Source of the DNA: Acetobacterium woodii
GTDB taxonomy: Bacteria; Bacillota; Clostridia; Eubacteriales; Eubacteriaceae
Assembly: GCA_016213825.1 (NCBI GenBank)
Contig: JACQZP010000009.1
Span: 62,001 to 126,000, forward strand
Direction: 5' to 3'
Length of the DNA stretch: 64,000 nucleotides
Shown here: positions 46,703 through 63,202 of the stretch, piece after piece
Layout: each line of letters begins with the position of its first letter
How positions within the stretch are numbered: position 1 is the first letter of the stretch
Made by a program: the position numbers and the translations under genes
Notes under the pieces: model-generated
Told to the model about the DNA's origin: nothing
Database searches by the model: none
The model's input: the letters and a program-made list of their open reading frames with translations, nothing else

Positions 46703-46799
46703 TCATTACACGTATCCATTGATTCCGATCATGATTACATCAAAGAATCAACTTTTGCTAATGTTACTAACTTCCCTTTTCCCTGGAAGGACACTTTAG

Positions 46800-46965
46800 T
46801 ACATCATTTTAGTAGGTTTCCTGACTTATAGCTTATATTCCCCTTGCCTTCCCAGACAATACGTGCCCAGTGACATAATAAGGAGACTTAACTAATTACA
46901 GTGACCGGATCGTTCTGGATTCTAACCAGATTCCCTCAATGAAAATTATTCATCCTAAATGATTT
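46800..46965 (-). ncRNA. Cobalamin riboswitch upstream of cbiM
   Basis: Minus strand. Conserved cobalamin aptamer blocks occur in order: GAGGGAATCTGG...GAATCC, the box GTCACTGG, CTGGGAAGGC and the 3' B12 box AGTCAGGAAACCTAC. Downstream is the attenuator at 46658-46702. It should repress the supercluster when adenosylcobalamin or another corrinoid is plentiful. Which corrinoid binds cannot be read from sequence alone. Confidence 0.93.
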
Positions 46966-46992
46966 TTTACATTTCTATTTAATTGTGTTTAT

Positions 46993-58358: not shown

Positions 58359-59123
58359 TCAATACTCCCAGCCTCGCTGATTCATTTCTTCAATGGCACT
58401 GGCAACCAGATCCACAAAAATCTCCAGCATCTGTTCCCCTTTTTCAATGCTGGCTTTGGTGGGATCGCCGGTGGCACCGGTGGCGGTGAGTTCTTTGATA
58501 TCCCAGATAATATCCACCTTTTCGTTAATCTTAATAACATTTTCCGGTACTTGAGATACCGCATCTTCCAGCTTGACCAGTTCCGGGCGCAGGGCCATCA
58601 TGATCGAGGTTTCGCCCTCGCCACCATGCCCCAGTCCGTTCCAGACCTCAAAACGGTCGCCCATAATTGGTCCGACCTTTGTCCACCAATCCGGCAGGTA
58701 GAGAAACTTTGCCTCACGATGGCGATTTTTGACCTTATGCGCGGCAATTTCTAGCGCCGGGATATTGCCATCGTGACCATTTAAAATATAAATGTGTTTG
58801 ATCCCGTTGTTAATCAGGCTTTCAAAAATATCCTCAGCAATGGCAATTTCCGTTTCATACCGCAGCGTAATCGACATCGGGTAACGGTTGTAATGGATGG
58901 ATGTCCCAAAAGGCACACAGGGCAGCACCACCACATGATCAAGCTTCTCAGCTACCCGTTTGGCAACCTCGGAGGGCACGAAAAAATCCGGTCCCAGGCA
59001 ACAATGCCAGCCATGACTCTCACAGGACCCAAAGGTCACAATAGCCGTTACCTGATCGGCCTTTTTTAACATCTCCTGGACTTCAAGTGCGGTCATTTCG
59101 TTGAGCATTACCTTTTTCATCAT
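58359..59123 (-). CDS. Creatininase family protein
   Basis: About 254 residues from MMKKVMLNEMTALEVQEML. Creatininase-type amidohydrolases bind two metals; the ligand pattern is visible in FGSCESHGWHCCLGPDFF (Glu-x-His then Asp), LNGHDGN and GHGGEGETS. The family includes creatininase, the F420 and riboflavin biosynthesis amidohydrolase ArfB and MftE, so the substrate is open. The start follows AAAGGA; the longer frame has an unusual 20-residue extension without a ribosome site. Confidence 0.82.
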   Translation of the reverse strand: MMKKVMLNEMTALEVQEMLKKADQVTAIVTFGSCESHGWHCCLGPDFFVPSEVAKRVAEKLDHVVVLPCVPFGTSIHYNRYPMSITLRYETEIAIAEDIFESLINNGIKHIYILNGHDGNIPALEIAAHKVKNRHREAKFLYLPDWWTKVGPIMGDRFEVWNGLGHGGEGETSIMMALRPELVKLEDAVSQVPENVIKINEKVDIIWDIKELTATGATGDPTKASIEKGEQMLEIFVDLVASAIEEMNQRGWEY

Positions 59124-59158
59124 ACAATTCCTTTCAAATAAAATGTTTCTTAGGCTTT

Positions 59159-59296
59159 TTCCCAAGTTCCGTGAACTTTGCATTCAGTTTCACACGAAAC
59201 AATTTTTACACTGCACGTCGTACAGGCTGCCGCCTGTTCGCCTACACGTTACAAAATTGGTTGTGGAAACTCAACTCAAAGTAACTTTCGTTCGAC
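59159..59296. repeat. Palindromic element family A (full length)
   Basis: About 138 bases upstream of the creatininase gene: agttccgtgaactttgc, acacgaaacaatttttacac, cgcctacacgttacaaaatt and ctcaaagtaactttcgttcg in the family order. It is the only complete copy in the 47-60 kb region. Confidence 0.8.
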
Positions 59297-59384
59297 TCTT
59301 TTTAATTTTTTAATCGTCTAAAAATTATTATGATTTATATTTACCCAATTTTTCACCCATCATTTGTTGGAAAAGATAATTTAA

Positions 59385-60098
59385 TTAAATCTGGCCAGCC
59401 GCATCCATCTGTTTGAGTTGATTAAGAAATGCTGCCATCCACTGATTGTCCTGAAGCATGTATTCCGGATGGGATAATACCTCCTCTGGCGACTGCACAT
59501 AAGCCCCGGGAATCATTTCATCGCCGCAATTTGTAATGAGATCTTCAATAATCGGCAAGGTATTCTCTAAATGAAACTGAAACCCAAAGACTCTTTTATT
59601 ATAAACAAAGGCCTGATTTTTGCAGGCCGCACTTTCAGCGATGATGGTTGCCTCCTGGGGCAGGTCGACAAAGGTATCACCATGCCAGTGAAAGACCACT
59701 GGGTTATCGGGAAAAAATGAAAATAATGGTGACTCTTTCGCTTTTTCTGAAAACGTGATCGGGAACCAGCCAATTTCTTTCTGTTTGTTTTGAACCACTT
59801 TCCCGCCAATGATATCGGCAATCAACTGACTGCCCAGGCACATGCCCAGAATCACCTTGTTGGTTTCAATGGCATCTTTGATTAATTTTTTTTCGGCTTT
59901 TAGCCAGGGATATTGATCGTCTTCATAAATGTTCATCGGTCCCCCCATGACCACCAACCAGTCAAATTTGCTCACCTCCGGCAGCGCCTCATTGTTATAC
60001 AATTGTGTCGAAGTGACAATACATTGATTGGCTTTTGCCCATGCTAAAATACTCCCCGGATTTTCAAAGGGGACATGCTGTAAATAGTGAATTCTCAT
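59385..60098 (-). CDS. Class I glutamine amidotransferase-like protein
   Basis: 237 residues. Nucleophile Cys87 in GMCLGSQLIAD and catalytic His in FGFQFHLENTL are present, so the triad looks intact. FHWHGDTFVDLP is common in the GMP-synthase-like branch. These stand-alone proteins often act on gamma-glutamyl compounds, or are of unknown substrate. An extended -10 (TGGTATACT, minus, 60157-60165) suggests its own promoter. Confidence 0.88.
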   Translation of the reverse strand: MRIHYLQHVPFENPGSILAWAKANQCIVTSTQLYNNEALPEVSKFDWLVVMGGPMNIYEDDQYPWLKAEKKLIKDAIETNKVILGMCLGSQLIADIIGGKVVQNKQKEIGWFPITFSEKAKESPLFSFFPDNPVVFHWHGDTFVDLPQEATIIAESAACKNQAFVYNKRVFGFQFHLENTLPIIEDLITNCGDEMIPGAYVQSPEEVLSHPEYMLQDNQWMAAFLNQLKQMDAAGQI

Positions 60099-60156
60099 CT
60101 GCTACCTTCCCATTCTATTATTAATGTCGCTGATCAAACCGATCACCTTTTATCAA

Positions 60157-60165
60157 AGTATACCA
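60157..60165 (-). promoter_or_regulatory. Extended -10 element of the amidotransferase gene
   Basis: TGGTATACT on the minus strand, about 60 bases before the ATG. The -35 region is weak. Confidence 0.4.
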
Positions 60166-60239
60166 TTTTATCCCGATCATTTATAATTATTTCATTTTTA
60201 TTTATCACTTTTTAATAGGATTGCAAAAATTAATCGCAA

Positions 60240-60285
60240 TAAAAAAAGCACATTCAAAACCGAATGCACTTCTTTTATTGCGCCC
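60240..60285. terminator. Terminator-like hairpin in the 60.1-60.9 kb gap
   Basis: On the minus strand AGTGCATTC pairs with GAATGTGCT (two G-U pairs) and is followed by TTTTTTT. On the plus strand AGCACATTC / GAATGCACT is followed by TCTTTT. It lies below the structured region at 60358-60535, so it could end a small RNA from either strand. Confidence 0.7.
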
Positions 60286-60357
60286 AGGTTTTTTTAAACT
60301 TAGACTAAGAATACAGTTTTCTATATAAATGTAAATCAATGAAAGAAAGATAAATCC

Positions 60358-60535
60358 GGGGATGTCACACACCATCCCCGTGAAAGGGTATTAAATACTG
60401 ACTTGGAGATGTCCTTCTATTCGAAGTGATTCTTTTATTTATTGTTGGTCAGGAGAATACCAACCCCAGGCTACACACAATTGCCTAGGTTCGCAGGTGA
60501 TGGCCAATAACATGTCAGTATTAAGCAGGCTCACC
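60358..60535. ncRNA. Unassigned structured RNA candidate
   Basis: About 180 bases without coding potential but with nested inverted repeats. A hairpin at the left end pairs CGGGGATG with CATCCCCG (60358-60380). A long-range stem pairs TTAAATACTGAC (60391) with GTCAGTATTAA (ending 60524). Inner elements pair GTTGGT with ACCAAC, CCAGGC with GCCTAGG (one bulge) and TTATTG with CAATAA. I recognise no Rfam family with confidence; a 6S-like RNA was considered. The strand is undecided: a minus transcript would continue from the riboswitch unit at 60543-60838. A plus promoter could be TTAGAC...TATATA at about 60300-60328. Confidence 0.45.
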
Positions 60536-60542
60536 GAAAACG

Positions 60543-60570
60543 AAAAAATCCTTCTCCAACGGAGAAGGAT
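60543..60570 (-). terminator. Terminator of the orphan cobalamin riboswitch
   Basis: Perfect 10-bp stem ATCCTTCTCC / GGAGAAGGAT with a 3-base loop followed by TTTTTT on the minus strand, 65 bases after the aptamer. Confidence 0.9.
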
Positions 60571-60635
60571 AAAAGAATCATACTTACAAATTTAAATATA
60601 ATGCTCTTACGGTCCTCTAAATCGGAGGTTTGATA

Positions 60636-60800
60636 AGAAATCACTACAAACAGGTCTTCTGGCTCAACAATCAACTTTCCATCTCCCTTCCCGCTAATTT
60701 CTTAACAGTGGCTCTGAGACGGTCATCATGTTTTACAGCTGCGATTACAGCAAAGGATTTACACCTTTTTCCCTTGAATATAGGACAAGTTCACTATTTA
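60636..60800 (-). ncRNA. Orphan cobalamin riboswitch
   Basis: Minus strand. The aptamer blocks are all present in order: GGGAAAAAGGTGTAAATCC, TGCTGTAATCGCAGCTGTAA, GAGCCACTG, GCGGGAAGG and the B12 box GAGCCAGAAGACCTGTTTG. It has its own promoter (60810-60838) and a terminator (60543-60570). It lies downstream of the cbiT stop; the next minus-strand gene (amidotransferase) starts more than 500 bases further on, with a possible promoter of its own. Confidence 0.9.
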
Positions 60801-60809
60801 ATTGTTTTC

Positions 60810-60838
60810 ATTCTACACTAAGAATTTCTCTTTGTCAA
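60810..60838 (-). promoter_or_regulatory. Predicted promoter of the orphan riboswitch
   Basis: Consensus TTGACA (60833-60838) and TAGAAT (60810-60815) with exactly 17 bases between, on the minus strand, 34 bases after the cbiT stop and a few bases before the aptamer. Confidence 0.75.
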
Positions 60839-60871
60839 GCCGCAATTCTGAAAGTGTCACAAGCTTACTGT

Positions 60872-61450
60872 TTACTTCACATCCCCGGTAATAATAAAAA
60901 TCGGGTTGGAAGCCTTCAGCATGGTTAGACCGCCGATACCTTCGCCTCGGCTGATGCCGACCTGAATCAGTTCCACCGCATCAAAATACTGGTTCATCAG
61001 AGTCGTAGCCTGGGCAACGTTCTCCAGGGTAACAAAGTTGGCAATGACCCGGCCGCCGGCTCGAACATTAGCCTTGCACCACTGGAAGAGCCCTTCCATA
61101 TTGCCACCGGAGCCGCCGATGATAACTCGGTCCACCGGCTCTTTGATTTCGGCCAGCGCCTCTGGTGCTTTGCCGGGGATAATCACCACATGGTTGGCGT
61201 TAAAATGGTCTTTATTTTTTTGAACCAGCTCCAGCGCCGTTTCCTTGGCTTCCACGGCATAGACCTTGCCCTGGTCGGCTGCATAGGCTGCTTCCATGGT
61301 GAGCCCGCCGGTACCGGCACCGATATCCACCACCACATCGCCGGGTTCAATCCCCAGCAATGAAATCGTCAGGATGCGGATTTCTCGTTTGGTCATCGGG
61401 GCCTTGCCGCGAATATAGGCGTCGTCTTTGTATCCTGCAATCTTACTCAT
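60872..61450 (-). CDS. cbiT: Cobalt-precorrin-6B C15-methyltransferase (decarboxylating)
   Basis: 192 residues, class I SAM methyltransferase fold, unlike the other cbi methylases. DDAYIRGKAPMTKREIR is the family N-terminus; the SAM-binding motif is VVDIGAGTGGLTMEAAY, followed by AVEAKETAL and VIIGGSGGNMEGLF. It methylates C15 and decarboxylates the C12 acetate. Its start overlaps the cbiE stop by eight bases; in many genomes the two are one protein (CobL). Confidence 0.95.
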   Translation of the reverse strand: MSKIAGYKDDAYIRGKAPMTKREIRILTISLLGIEPGDVVVDIGAGTGGLTMEAAYAADQGKVYAVEAKETALELVQKNKDHFNANHVVIIPGKAPEALAEIKEPVDRVIIGGSGGNMEGLFQWCKANVRAGGRVIANFVTLENVAQATTLMNQYFDAVELIQVGISRGEGIGGLTMLKASNPIFIITGDVK

Positions 61451-62069
61451 TAATTACCACCACTACTGCCAATCCTTCCTCCTGATAGGTCAGGGCTTCT
61501 GCCACGGTTAAGCGGGTTATCTTTTCATTGGGATAGGATAACTCTTCTCCCACGTAAAGAATGCTGTTCTCACAGCCAGCTGTTTGGAGTATCTTGGCAA
61601 TAAACGCGGTATTATTATTTTTATCAGTCAGAATACCCAGCTTTTTATTTTCAGCAAGGGCTGCTGCCAAATCCTGATCCCGACCATGCAGGCTCATCAG
61701 CTTGGCATCCTCCCAGCTGATGGCCAGTTTGGCAAAAAAATACTGCAGCGAACTGATGCCAGGGATACAGACAATGTCCTCCGCCGGAACCACTTTTTTA
61801 GCATAGGTCAGCAGACTATAAAAACCGCTGTCGCCGGAAACAACCAGGGCTGTTTTTCGGCTCTGGTACACCTTGGCAACCTCATCCATCAATTCACTCA
61901 AGGGCGTTCCCTTGCCAATAAAAAGCATTTTTTTACCGCTGGCATCAAAGCTTTCGGCATGGCGGGTGCCACAGAGGATCACCTCCGCCGCTTCAATTTC
62001 TTTTAAGGCAATGGGTAATATATAATCCGGATGTCCCGGACCCAGTCCAATAATTTTTAATGGGTACAT
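61443..62069 (-). CDS. cbiE: Cobalt-precorrin-7 C5-methyltransferase
   Basis: 208 residues. Tetrapyrrole methylase: KIIGLGPGHPDYILPIA, LCGTRHAESF, VVSGDSGFYSLLTYAKK and IPGISSLQYFFAKLAISW. It methylates C5 and works with CbiT. Its start overlaps the cbiD stop by 13 bases. Confidence 0.95.
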   Translation of the reverse strand: MYPLKIIGLGPGHPDYILPIALKEIEAAEVILCGTRHAESFDASGKKMLFIGKGTPLSELMDEVAKVYQSRKTALVVSGDSGFYSLLTYAKKVVPAEDIVCIPGISSLQYFFAKLAISWEDAKLMSLHGRDQDLAAALAENKKLGILTDKNNNTAFIAKILQTAGCENSILYVGEELSYPNEKITRLTVAEALTYQEEGLAVVVVINE

Positions 62070-63202
62070 AATCGTTTCCTCAACTCTTCTGCGTCTTTGC
62101 TTTGTCCTAAAAAGCCATGGATTTTTGAAAACAGCACCACTTCGATTTCAATGGTTCCATAAACCCGATCCGTCACCTTTTTTCGTACGACCTCGGCCAG
62201 ATGGTTAAAATAGTCCGGCAAATTTTCGGCCAGAATAATATCGGTGGCTTCATCGGTTGTTTTGGACGCCATGATTTTTGCCATGGTTTCCCGGGATGCC
62301 CCCAATAGTCCGGCGTGGGCAGTCAGAATCTCCATCCGGCCATCGGCAACACTGCTATGGGTATTAAAAATCCCGCCAGCCAGCTTCACCAACTTGCCCA
62401 GATGGCCGATTAACAGTATTTTATCAAAGCCCATCCGCTCGGCCTCATCCAGCATAAAGCCCATAAAATTGCTGGTCTTCACCAGCACCGTTTCATCCAG
62501 CCCCAGTTCGTCTGAGAAATCTTTCCCATAATTGCCGGGCACAAAGATGATCTCTTTAAAGGCCTTGGCATGCAAAACGGATAGTTCCAGTTTCAATGAA
62601 GCTTTCCAGGCCTCTTCACTCATCGGTTCGACAATTCCGGTAGTGCCGAGGATGGATAAACCGCCTTCAATCCCCAGCTTGGGATTAAAGGTGCGTTTTG
62701 CCAATTCGATTCCCTGAGGAATCGACAGTTCCACCCGCCAGCCGGTGGGCAAATCGGACCGGTGCTTGACGGCGTCAGAATCCAAAACGGTATTAATCGC
62801 CTGGATAATCATTTCTCTGGGGGTGGGATTAATCGCCGGTTCTCCCGGGGGAATGCTGAGTCCCACCGAGGTCACCGTGCCGACGCCAATGCCGGCGGCA
62901 AACTGAATCCCTTCCTGATCGGATGGGGTGATCTTCGAAAAGATCTTGATGCCATTGGTCACATCCGGGTCATCCCCGGCATCTTTGACTACTGAACAGG
63001 AAGCTTCGTTTTTTGAAAAAAGCTGATCATGCAGCACCAGATCCAAGGGCCAGCCCTTGGGCGTATTGATTTCAACCGTATCCCATTTCTGCTGATTTAA
63101 AAACATCAGCAAGGCTGCTTTGGTCGCCGCCGTGGCACAGGAGCCCGTGGTATAACCGTAACGCATTATTTTTCCATTTCTTTCAATGGTTTTATTAAAC
63201 AT
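62057..63202 (-). CDS. cbiD: Cobalt-precorrin-5B C1-methyltransferase CbiD
   Basis: 381 residues. It is the anaerobic-route enzyme that methylates C1. MRYGYTTGSCATAATKAALL at residue 13, VKDAGDDPDVTNG, INPTPREMI, GTTGIVEPMSEEAWKASL, VPGNYGKDF and LIGHLGKLVKLAGGIFNTHS are characteristic. I kept the first Met because GGAGG stands seven bases before it; the Met at residue 13 has only a weak site. Confidence 0.95.
   Translation of the reverse strand: MFNKTIERNGKIMRYGYTTGSCATAATKAALLMFLNQQKWDTVEINTPKGWPLDLVLHDQLFSKNEASCSVVKDAGDDPDVTNGIKIFSKITPSDQEGIQFAAGIGVGTVTSVGLSIPPGEPAINPTPREMIIQAINTVLDSDAVKHRSDLPTGWRVELSIPQGIELAKRTFNPKLGIEGGLSILGTTGIVEPMSEEAWKASLKLELSVLHAKAFKEIIFVPGNYGKDFSDELGLDETVLVKTSNFMGFMLDEAERMGFDKILLIGHLGKLVKLAGGIFNTHSSVADGRMEILTAHAGLLGASRETMAKIMASKTTDEATDIILAENLPDYFNHLAEVVRKKVTDRVYGTIEIEVVLFSKIHGFLGQSKDAEELRKRLCTH

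Follow-up and report, generated by a model that had tools for sequence, protein, structure and literature searches.

A cobalamin riboswitch ahead of a conserved small RNA in Acetobacterium, with corrinoid-protein genes as probable targets

The closest described systems are EutX of Enterococcus faecalis and Rli55 of Listeria monocytogenes, in which, according to the parts of the sources available, an AdoCbl riboswitch and a terminator stand before a trans-acting non-coding RNA, AdoCbl yields the short form (PMC5821096), and the RNA sequesters the ANTAR regulator EutV via hexaloops with A1 and G4 (PMC5821096, PMC8934654). At pocR of Listeria a cobalamin riboswitch drives an antisense RNA, as stated in the available part of that account (PMC9943018). 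The riboswitch-controlled regulatory RNAs described so far in these partial sources thus act by protein sequestration or as antisense (PMC5821096, PMC9943018). For A. bakii, the accessible portion of one study reports five intergenic transcription starts at cobalamin riboswitches, interpreted there as cis elements (PMC6239172), and among the full-text literature matches listed, a scope outside which most subscription papers fall, none describes a riboswitch-controlled small RNA in Acetobacterium.

The locus presented here lies in a window of 64,000 nucleotides (the whole stretch of DNA that was analysed). It shares with EutX and Rli55 the order of riboswitch and terminator before a non-coding RNA, but carries CUCC and GUGUGUGA loops and no conserved ANTAR hexaloop. 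It also resembles the pocR system, as far as the available account of the latter goes, in that a cobalamin riboswitch is proposed to drive a regulatory RNA; in Listeria the RNA is antisense to a gene on the other strand, whereas the predicted targets in Acetobacterium lie elsewhere and only small frames are found opposite. That a riboswitch stands in front of a conserved small RNA is very well supported. We further propose that this RNA is gated by the riboswitch and rations B12 through loop-loop pairing, an explanation of the whole that we favour with some confidence.

The riboswitch unit and its neighbours

The initial annotation had described a minus-strand succession of promoter, aptamer and terminator that no gene follows, and each of these elements was confirmed. 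The unit and its flanking genes comprise the following features.

60872..61450, minus strand: cbiT-like gene, the end of an upstream cobalamin operon; a neighbour, in 12/18 loci
60810..60838, minus strand: promoter, TTGACA (-35), 17-base spacer, TAGAAT (-10); hexamers mostly kept in the genus alignment, spacer variable
60632..60820, minus strand: cobalamin riboswitch aptamer, RF00174
60614..60628, minus strand: P13-like hairpin CCUC-CGAUUUA-GAGG, whose loop GAUUUA complements UAAAUC of the aptamer L5 loop
60541..60570, minus strand: terminator 1 of the riboswitch, AUCCUUCUCC-GUU-GGAGAAGGAU and a U tract; present in 16 contiguous loci
59385..60098, minus strand: class-I glutamine amidotransferase gene (PF00117); a neighbour, not part of the unit

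The name cbiT is our assumption, Pfam itself giving methyltransferase families only, and the labels P13 and L5 on the platform hairpin and the aptamer loop are likewise presumed. The promoter agrees with 11 of 12 consensus positions and scores best among the 15 promoter-like sites that 58500-62500 contains, where shuffles would give 7.7. An Infernal search with RF00174, which the initial annotation had proposed, recovered the aptamer at 81.4 bits (E 1.8e-18; gathering score 31.5), and its description as well conserved is matched by a mean pairwise identity of 0.93 over 15 loci. Terminator 1 has a stem of 10 bp (60570-60548) followed by a T tract. The next minus-strand gene, 445 bases past 60543, is the amidotransferase gene as described (start 60098, PF00117), and the further terminator-like hairpin noted in front of it is present at 60282-60235.

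The 5' arm of the P13-like hairpin can alternatively pair with terminator 1, forming an antiterminator, and the two forms have near-equal folding energies (-27.4 to -27.9 kcal/mol for the terminator form and -26.4 kcal/mol for the antiterminator form). An L5-L13 complement (UAAAUC/GAUUUA) combined with alternative terminator and antiterminator folds is the usual kind of platform for a B12-OFF switch, suggesting that this riboswitch would act in the OFF direction. The arrangement is not due to chance, for other members of the genus have kept the promoter hexamers as well as the aptamer and its platform.

Eight cobalamin riboswitches were found in the same genome (3.94 Mb, 37 contigs). Behind the other seven an open frame begins 65 to 301 bases beyond the aptamer, and by Pfam these frames encode a metal-sensitive repressor, a ThiC family protein, CbiJ, an ABC transporter, CbiM, an anaerobic ribonucleotide reductase and a periplasmic binding protein; unlike these, the 60632-60820 aptamer has no open frame between it and the amidotransferase gene. 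The second riboswitch of the window (46794-46973, minus strand) is an ordinary one before the CbiM cobalt transporter gene and illustrates the difference from cis-acting riboswitches of the same aptamer family, in that a coding sequence follows there and none at 60632-60820. Elsewhere in the genome, NrdD, the anaerobic ribonucleotide reductase, lies directly behind its riboswitch (L007 1501-3182), which would fit a B12-independent stand-in that is off with B12, and the histidine-rich metal-sensitive repressor (PF02583), first behind another riboswitch (L001 1005-1696), is an unusual target.

The conserved RNA beyond the first terminator

A DNA search of 19 Acetobacterium genomes returned the riboswitch together with a separate conserved block beyond its terminator, a structured RNA that the initial annotation had overlooked. 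Its parts in the window are as follows.

60465..60489, minus strand: spacer hairpin CCUAGGC...GCCUGGG, whose loop region holds another UGUGUG (60479-60474)
60235..60471, minus strand: conserved small RNA block (covariance model R1) with its own terminator; in 18/19 genus genomes
60444..60464, minus strand: hairpin 1, loop UUCUCCU, complement of AGGAGAA ribosome-binding sites
60390..60414, minus strand: near-invariant core GGACAUCUCCAAGUCAGUAUUUAAU in the genus alignment, with a second CUCC
60357..60380, minus strand: hairpin 3, CGGGGAUG-GUGUGUGA-CAUCCCCG; proposed kissing loop 60372-60365
60235..60282, minus strand: terminator 2, a terminator-like hairpin at the end of the small RNA

Model R1, built from 16 sequences with 60237-60471 among them, finds the small RNA in 18 of the 19 genomes. 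In an alignment of relatives, as had been suggested initially, promoter, aptamer, terminator, variable spacer and RNA block are contiguous in 16 of the 19. The unit is in pieces at contig ends in G006, and the small RNA was not found in G011, which is 87% complete. Outside the genus, 48 genomes of the order, including 21 from the same family, gave no match under stricter filters at which weak matches can be lost. G007 has the RNA block without the aptamer (L026 419-667) and four cobalamin riboswitches elsewhere; because its promoter spacer is shortened, the stem mismatched and the loop changed, we read this copy as decayed, and its use as a natural riboswitch deletion was dropped and given no weight. 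Over 15 of the 18 loci (two without aptamer and one failing the terminator pattern being excluded), mean pairwise identity is 0.90 for the RNA core and 0.80 for the whole RNA, against 0.56-0.58 for the flanks.

The initial annotation had offered two readings of the empty stretch, a riboswitch that regulates a small RNA and a riboswitch whose target gene was lost. The 445 bases without a gene would suit the latter; however, the same gene-less arrangement recurs in 16 genomes with a conserved RNA behind it, which supports the small-RNA reading and leaves gene loss with practically no probability.

Conservation extends to the fold of the small RNA. When the structure is taken as hairpins 1, 3 and 4 plus terminator 2, paired cells make up 95.4% overall (shuffles: 90.8%) and 98.6% in hairpin 3, and 13 pairs have changed on both sides against 5.6 +/- 1.7 in shuffles, with two-sided changes at 6 of the 12 pairs of the terminator 2 helix; further pair types, at 31 vs 28.7 in shuffles, are unremarkable in number. 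Three single-stranded motifs are conserved, namely the hairpin-1 loop UUUCUCCU, the core ACAUCUCCAAGUCAG and the hairpin-3 loop GUGUGUGA. A hairpin with a CUCC loop occurs in 15 of 17 folded sequences, and the UGUGUG of hairpin 3 is retained in 17 of 18 copies, the exception being G007. The spacer hairpin with UGUGUG in its loop is found in 10 of the 16 contiguous loci and is missing in the six with a short spacer; its stem is unrelated to that of hairpin 3 although both present UGUGUG. A hairpin with a CUGGCC loop, carried by 13 of 15 aligned relatives (CUGGUC in G009 and G010), is missing from the window's copy at 60260-60330 (minus strand). At gathering score, Rfam 15 matched the whole window at the two cobalamin riboswitches only, leaving the small RNA without a family; low-score matches in 60100-60640 were all under their own gathering scores, and a comparison with phage records gave no match.

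In 15 of 18 loci the amidotransferase gene follows on the same strand, in 13 of them as the immediate neighbour, as might be expected if the block were a second leader in tandem, acting in cis on that gene. Against this, terminator 2 closes the small RNA, another gene intervenes in G008 and G012, in G008 and G018 the unit is followed by a gene of the opposite strand (an ADP-ribosylglycohydrolase in the latter), and G001, G007 and G018 show no amidotransferase gene within the flank examined, so that the gene is separated or unseen in 5 of the 18 loci. We consider a tandem leader very improbable. Upstream, cbiE- and cbiT-like genes are present in 12 of 18 loci. The small RNA stays where neighbouring genes change, and with its own promoter, its own terminator and a conserved structure it has the features of a free-standing unit. 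Promoter, aptamer, two terminators, covarying conserved RNA, presence across the genus and independence of neighbours can all be seen at the level of sequence, and riboswitch and small RNA would lie on one transcript.

A coding role for the block was also considered, as most loci have a frame (MVCDIPEF...) that begins at an ATG within hairpin 3. This frame stops after 8-9 codons in G004, G005, G006 and G015 and runs up to 56 codons elsewhere, no ribosome site was seen before the ATG, and the ATG sits in a stable stem, so a conserved small peptide appears highly improbable. Short frames across the small RNA generally vary in length and end, with early stops in the same four genomes, and a conserved frame behind the aptamer in relatives, which the initial annotation had named as speaking against its small-RNA reading, was not found. 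Opposite the small RNA, where a pocR-type antisense target would lie, only frames of up to 66 codons were found.

The initial annotation had likened the locus to EutX and Rli55. A riboswitch before a conserved non-coding RNA agrees with that comparison, while the working part of those RNAs, a conserved A1-G4 hexaloop, does not recur. None is present in the RNA block of 14 of 16 sequences; in the other two, terminator 2 contains one on a 4-bp stem, as does terminator 1 in the window's sequence. A sponge for an ANTAR regulator would have potential partners, with ANTAR genes in all 19 genomes (two in 8, one in 11) and EutV-type loci in at least seven, the window's included; these are seven of the eight ANTAR genes whose surroundings were read (L088-L094), the eutS-eutP-eutV-eutW names being presumed. 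In the window's genome the locus of this type (L091 276-3154) is on contig C35, which has no cobalamin riboswitch. Yet 11 of the 19 genomes have a single ANTAR gene, and the one such gene that was read, in G007, adjoins a glutamine-synthetase-like gene. The window's genome therefore has a candidate partner in EutV, but judging from its sequence the RNA is without the ANTAR binding motif, and we regard an ANTAR sponge as very unlikely.

CACACA upstream of corrinoid-protein genes

When the RNA core was scanned for duplexes with 174 start regions from the window's genome, the best match was a corrinoid gene (-21.3 kcal/mol), a result without significance because ten shuffled cores and the reversed core reach -17.6 to -24.9 kcal/mol, and the match was not retained. 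Core complementarity to corrinoid UTRs relative to other genes was likewise not significant (p 0.06), nor was it higher in genes with CACACA (p 0.18), and core-derived patterns in the 19 genomes gave no genus-wide conserved target among the matches listed. In one pattern search TACTGAATAGGAG was the sole clear repeated match besides the RNA itself, at 8 corrinoid genes of 5 genomes, all with CACACA upstream but homologues of each other. The first clue came from two corrinoid genes of the core scan that carry hairpins with a CACACA loop upstream of the ribosome site, and the hairpin-3 loop GUGUGUGA is complementary to CACACA.

Corrinoid genes were taken as PF02607 matches in the own genome G000 (30 of its 31 matches), in G010, G013 and G018, and in G023, a genome of another genus without the small RNA. 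UCACAC or CACACA occurs in -130..-15 at 7/30 loci in G000, 11/37 in G010, 7/19 in G013 and 7/26 in G018, that is at 32 of 112 pooled loci (80 being without it), and at 1 of 22 in G023 (p 0.015, a comparison with a single genome lacking the small RNA). The motif was noticed post hoc in G000 and replicated in the three other genomes, of which G010 is a near relative. Its density in -130..-15 is 2.3-3.2 per kb in the four genomes vs 0-0.27 per kb in other bins, and 0.4 vs 0-0.76 per kb in G023. Other genes have it in 6 of 353 cases (Fisher 3e-16), in a background partly chosen by SD-like patterns and with two corrinoid genes among its six positives; in a background unselected for ribosome-site patterns CACACA occurs in 2 of 180 (p 6e-13).

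Control words were found at 4 (reverse complement), 18 (plain reversal, which shares ACACAC), 3 (GAGAGA type) and 0 (CTCTCT type) of the 112 loci, and the rarity of the reverse complement indicates a strand-specific signal. Paralogy among corrinoid genes is a caveat on these counts; after removal of similar upstream regions the motif is at 16 of 74 loci vs 1.6 after dinucleotide shuffling, where the highest count among 1000 runs was 7, and at 1 of 22 vs 0.44 expected in G023. CACACAA is the commonest 7-mer in -130..-15 after ribosome-site words, A+T-rich words being set aside.

The 35 CACACA sites form 22 sequence clusters, 21 of them outside G023. A strong stem lies directly around CACACA in 7 of the 21 (14 being without one), against 0.36 in shuffles and 0.8 with flanks exchanged; two of the seven (L104, L260) look related. 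The stems are unrelated between operons (e.g. GTAACTGG/CCAGTTAC, TCTTTG/CAAAGA and ATTGCTGCG/CGTGGTGAT), and among orthologues of one gene (G000, G009 and G010 vs G016 and G017) the stem is altered with pairing kept and the loop unchanged, with four double changes by hand count. Across 771 kb of overlapping sequence, comprising the window and the loci as far as L230, strong hairpins with a CACACA loop that lie outside corrinoid upstream regions were found antisense to the small RNA's own unit and in L076 and L143. At gathering score, Rfam 15 gave no match to the CACACA hairpins of seven target loci.

Measured at 16 loci, the distance from the start of the motif to the corrinoid start codon downstream is 33-103 nt, and in 10 of these loci the preceding frame ends like a methyltetrahydrofolate:corrinoid methyltransferase, which NCBIfam confirms for L114, the only one tested. 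Seven corrinoid proteins tested resemble MtgC/MtbC types at scores below the NCBIfam cut-offs. Corrinoid upstream regions in L117 and L299 (genomes with the small RNA) and L295 (G023) share a palindrome-like ACATGTACACACATGT, perhaps a separate operator.

A second site accompanies the first. AGGAGAA is found in the ribosome-site region of 42 of 109 corrinoid genes (the 112 minus 3 in which no start codon was found), against 24 of 368 other genes, a background partly selected by SD patterns, and 1 of 21 in G023; against an unselected background (14/180) p is 3e-10. Among corrinoid genes it goes together with CACACA (20/32 vs 22/77, p 0.001), and GGAGG does not (4/32 vs 21/77). Sites complementary to the small RNA, CACACA as well as AGGAGAA, are thus enriched at the candidate targets, as expected of a trans-acting RNA. 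Hairpin 3 of the small RNA is preceded on its 5' side by the CUCC loops, and CACACA in the mRNA is followed on its 3' side by the ribosome site, an order that fits antiparallel pairing. A duplex of just the loops comes to -7.4 to -8.2 kcal/mol.

Some factor other than the small RNA, whether an RNA-binding protein, a nuclease or a different RNA, could instead recognise the CACACA hairpins, with the riboswitch still controlling the small RNA and the small RNA having different targets. Enrichment and hairpins stand without reference to the small RNA, and by our estimate a given hexamer would find a chance match within a 230-nt RNA in about 5% of cases. However, the matching loop is near-invariant and stably exposed, these genes also have ribosome sites that fit a second loop, the order of the sites is antiparallel, and G023, without the small RNA, is nearly without the motif. 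We consider such a factor unlikely, and a corrinoid target class addressed by loop-loop pairing probable. Because UGUGUG hardly varies within the genus, co-variation with the targets cannot be followed.

A proposed route from cobalamin to corrinoid-protein genes

We posit a free-standing transcription unit in which the cobalamin riboswitch controls the small RNA. With B12 bound, the P13 hairpin would form and terminator 1 would end the transcript at about 260 nt; at low B12 the antiterminator would let polymerase reach terminator 2, giving a predicted transcript of about 565 nt and with it the small RNA. From the CACACA enrichment and hairpin setting, which are read directly from the genomes, we infer pairing and regulation: the hairpin-3 loop would kiss CACACA hairpin loops some 30-100 nt upstream of corrinoid-protein starts, and the 5' CUCC loops would pair with the AGGAGAA ribosome sites downstream. 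Corrinoid methyltransferase systems would thereby be held back, leaving scarce B12 for essential use. Whether this amounts to a genus-wide, RNA-only regulon for B12 rationing, in which one small RNA would silence many corrinoid methyltransferase operons via CACACA loops on unrelated stems, is evenly balanced on the sequence evidence.

Small RNAs of the RyhB type are made when a cofactor is scarce and repress its users, RyhB itself being under a protein repressor. The cofactor-sparing logic proposed here is similar, the difference being that a riboswitch would gate the Acetobacterium RNA directly. If correct, a single riboswitch employs a base-pairing RNA to restrain an entire class of users of the vitamin that it senses, as a riboswitch counterpart of iron sparing. 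The central carbon pathway of acetogens depends on corrinoids, and with 31 corrinoid-domain matches in the genome, the division of scarce B12 becomes a testable question. Also among the loci surveyed is an MttB-family frame (L130 1501-2970) that contains one TGA and one TAA and is probably a broken copy.
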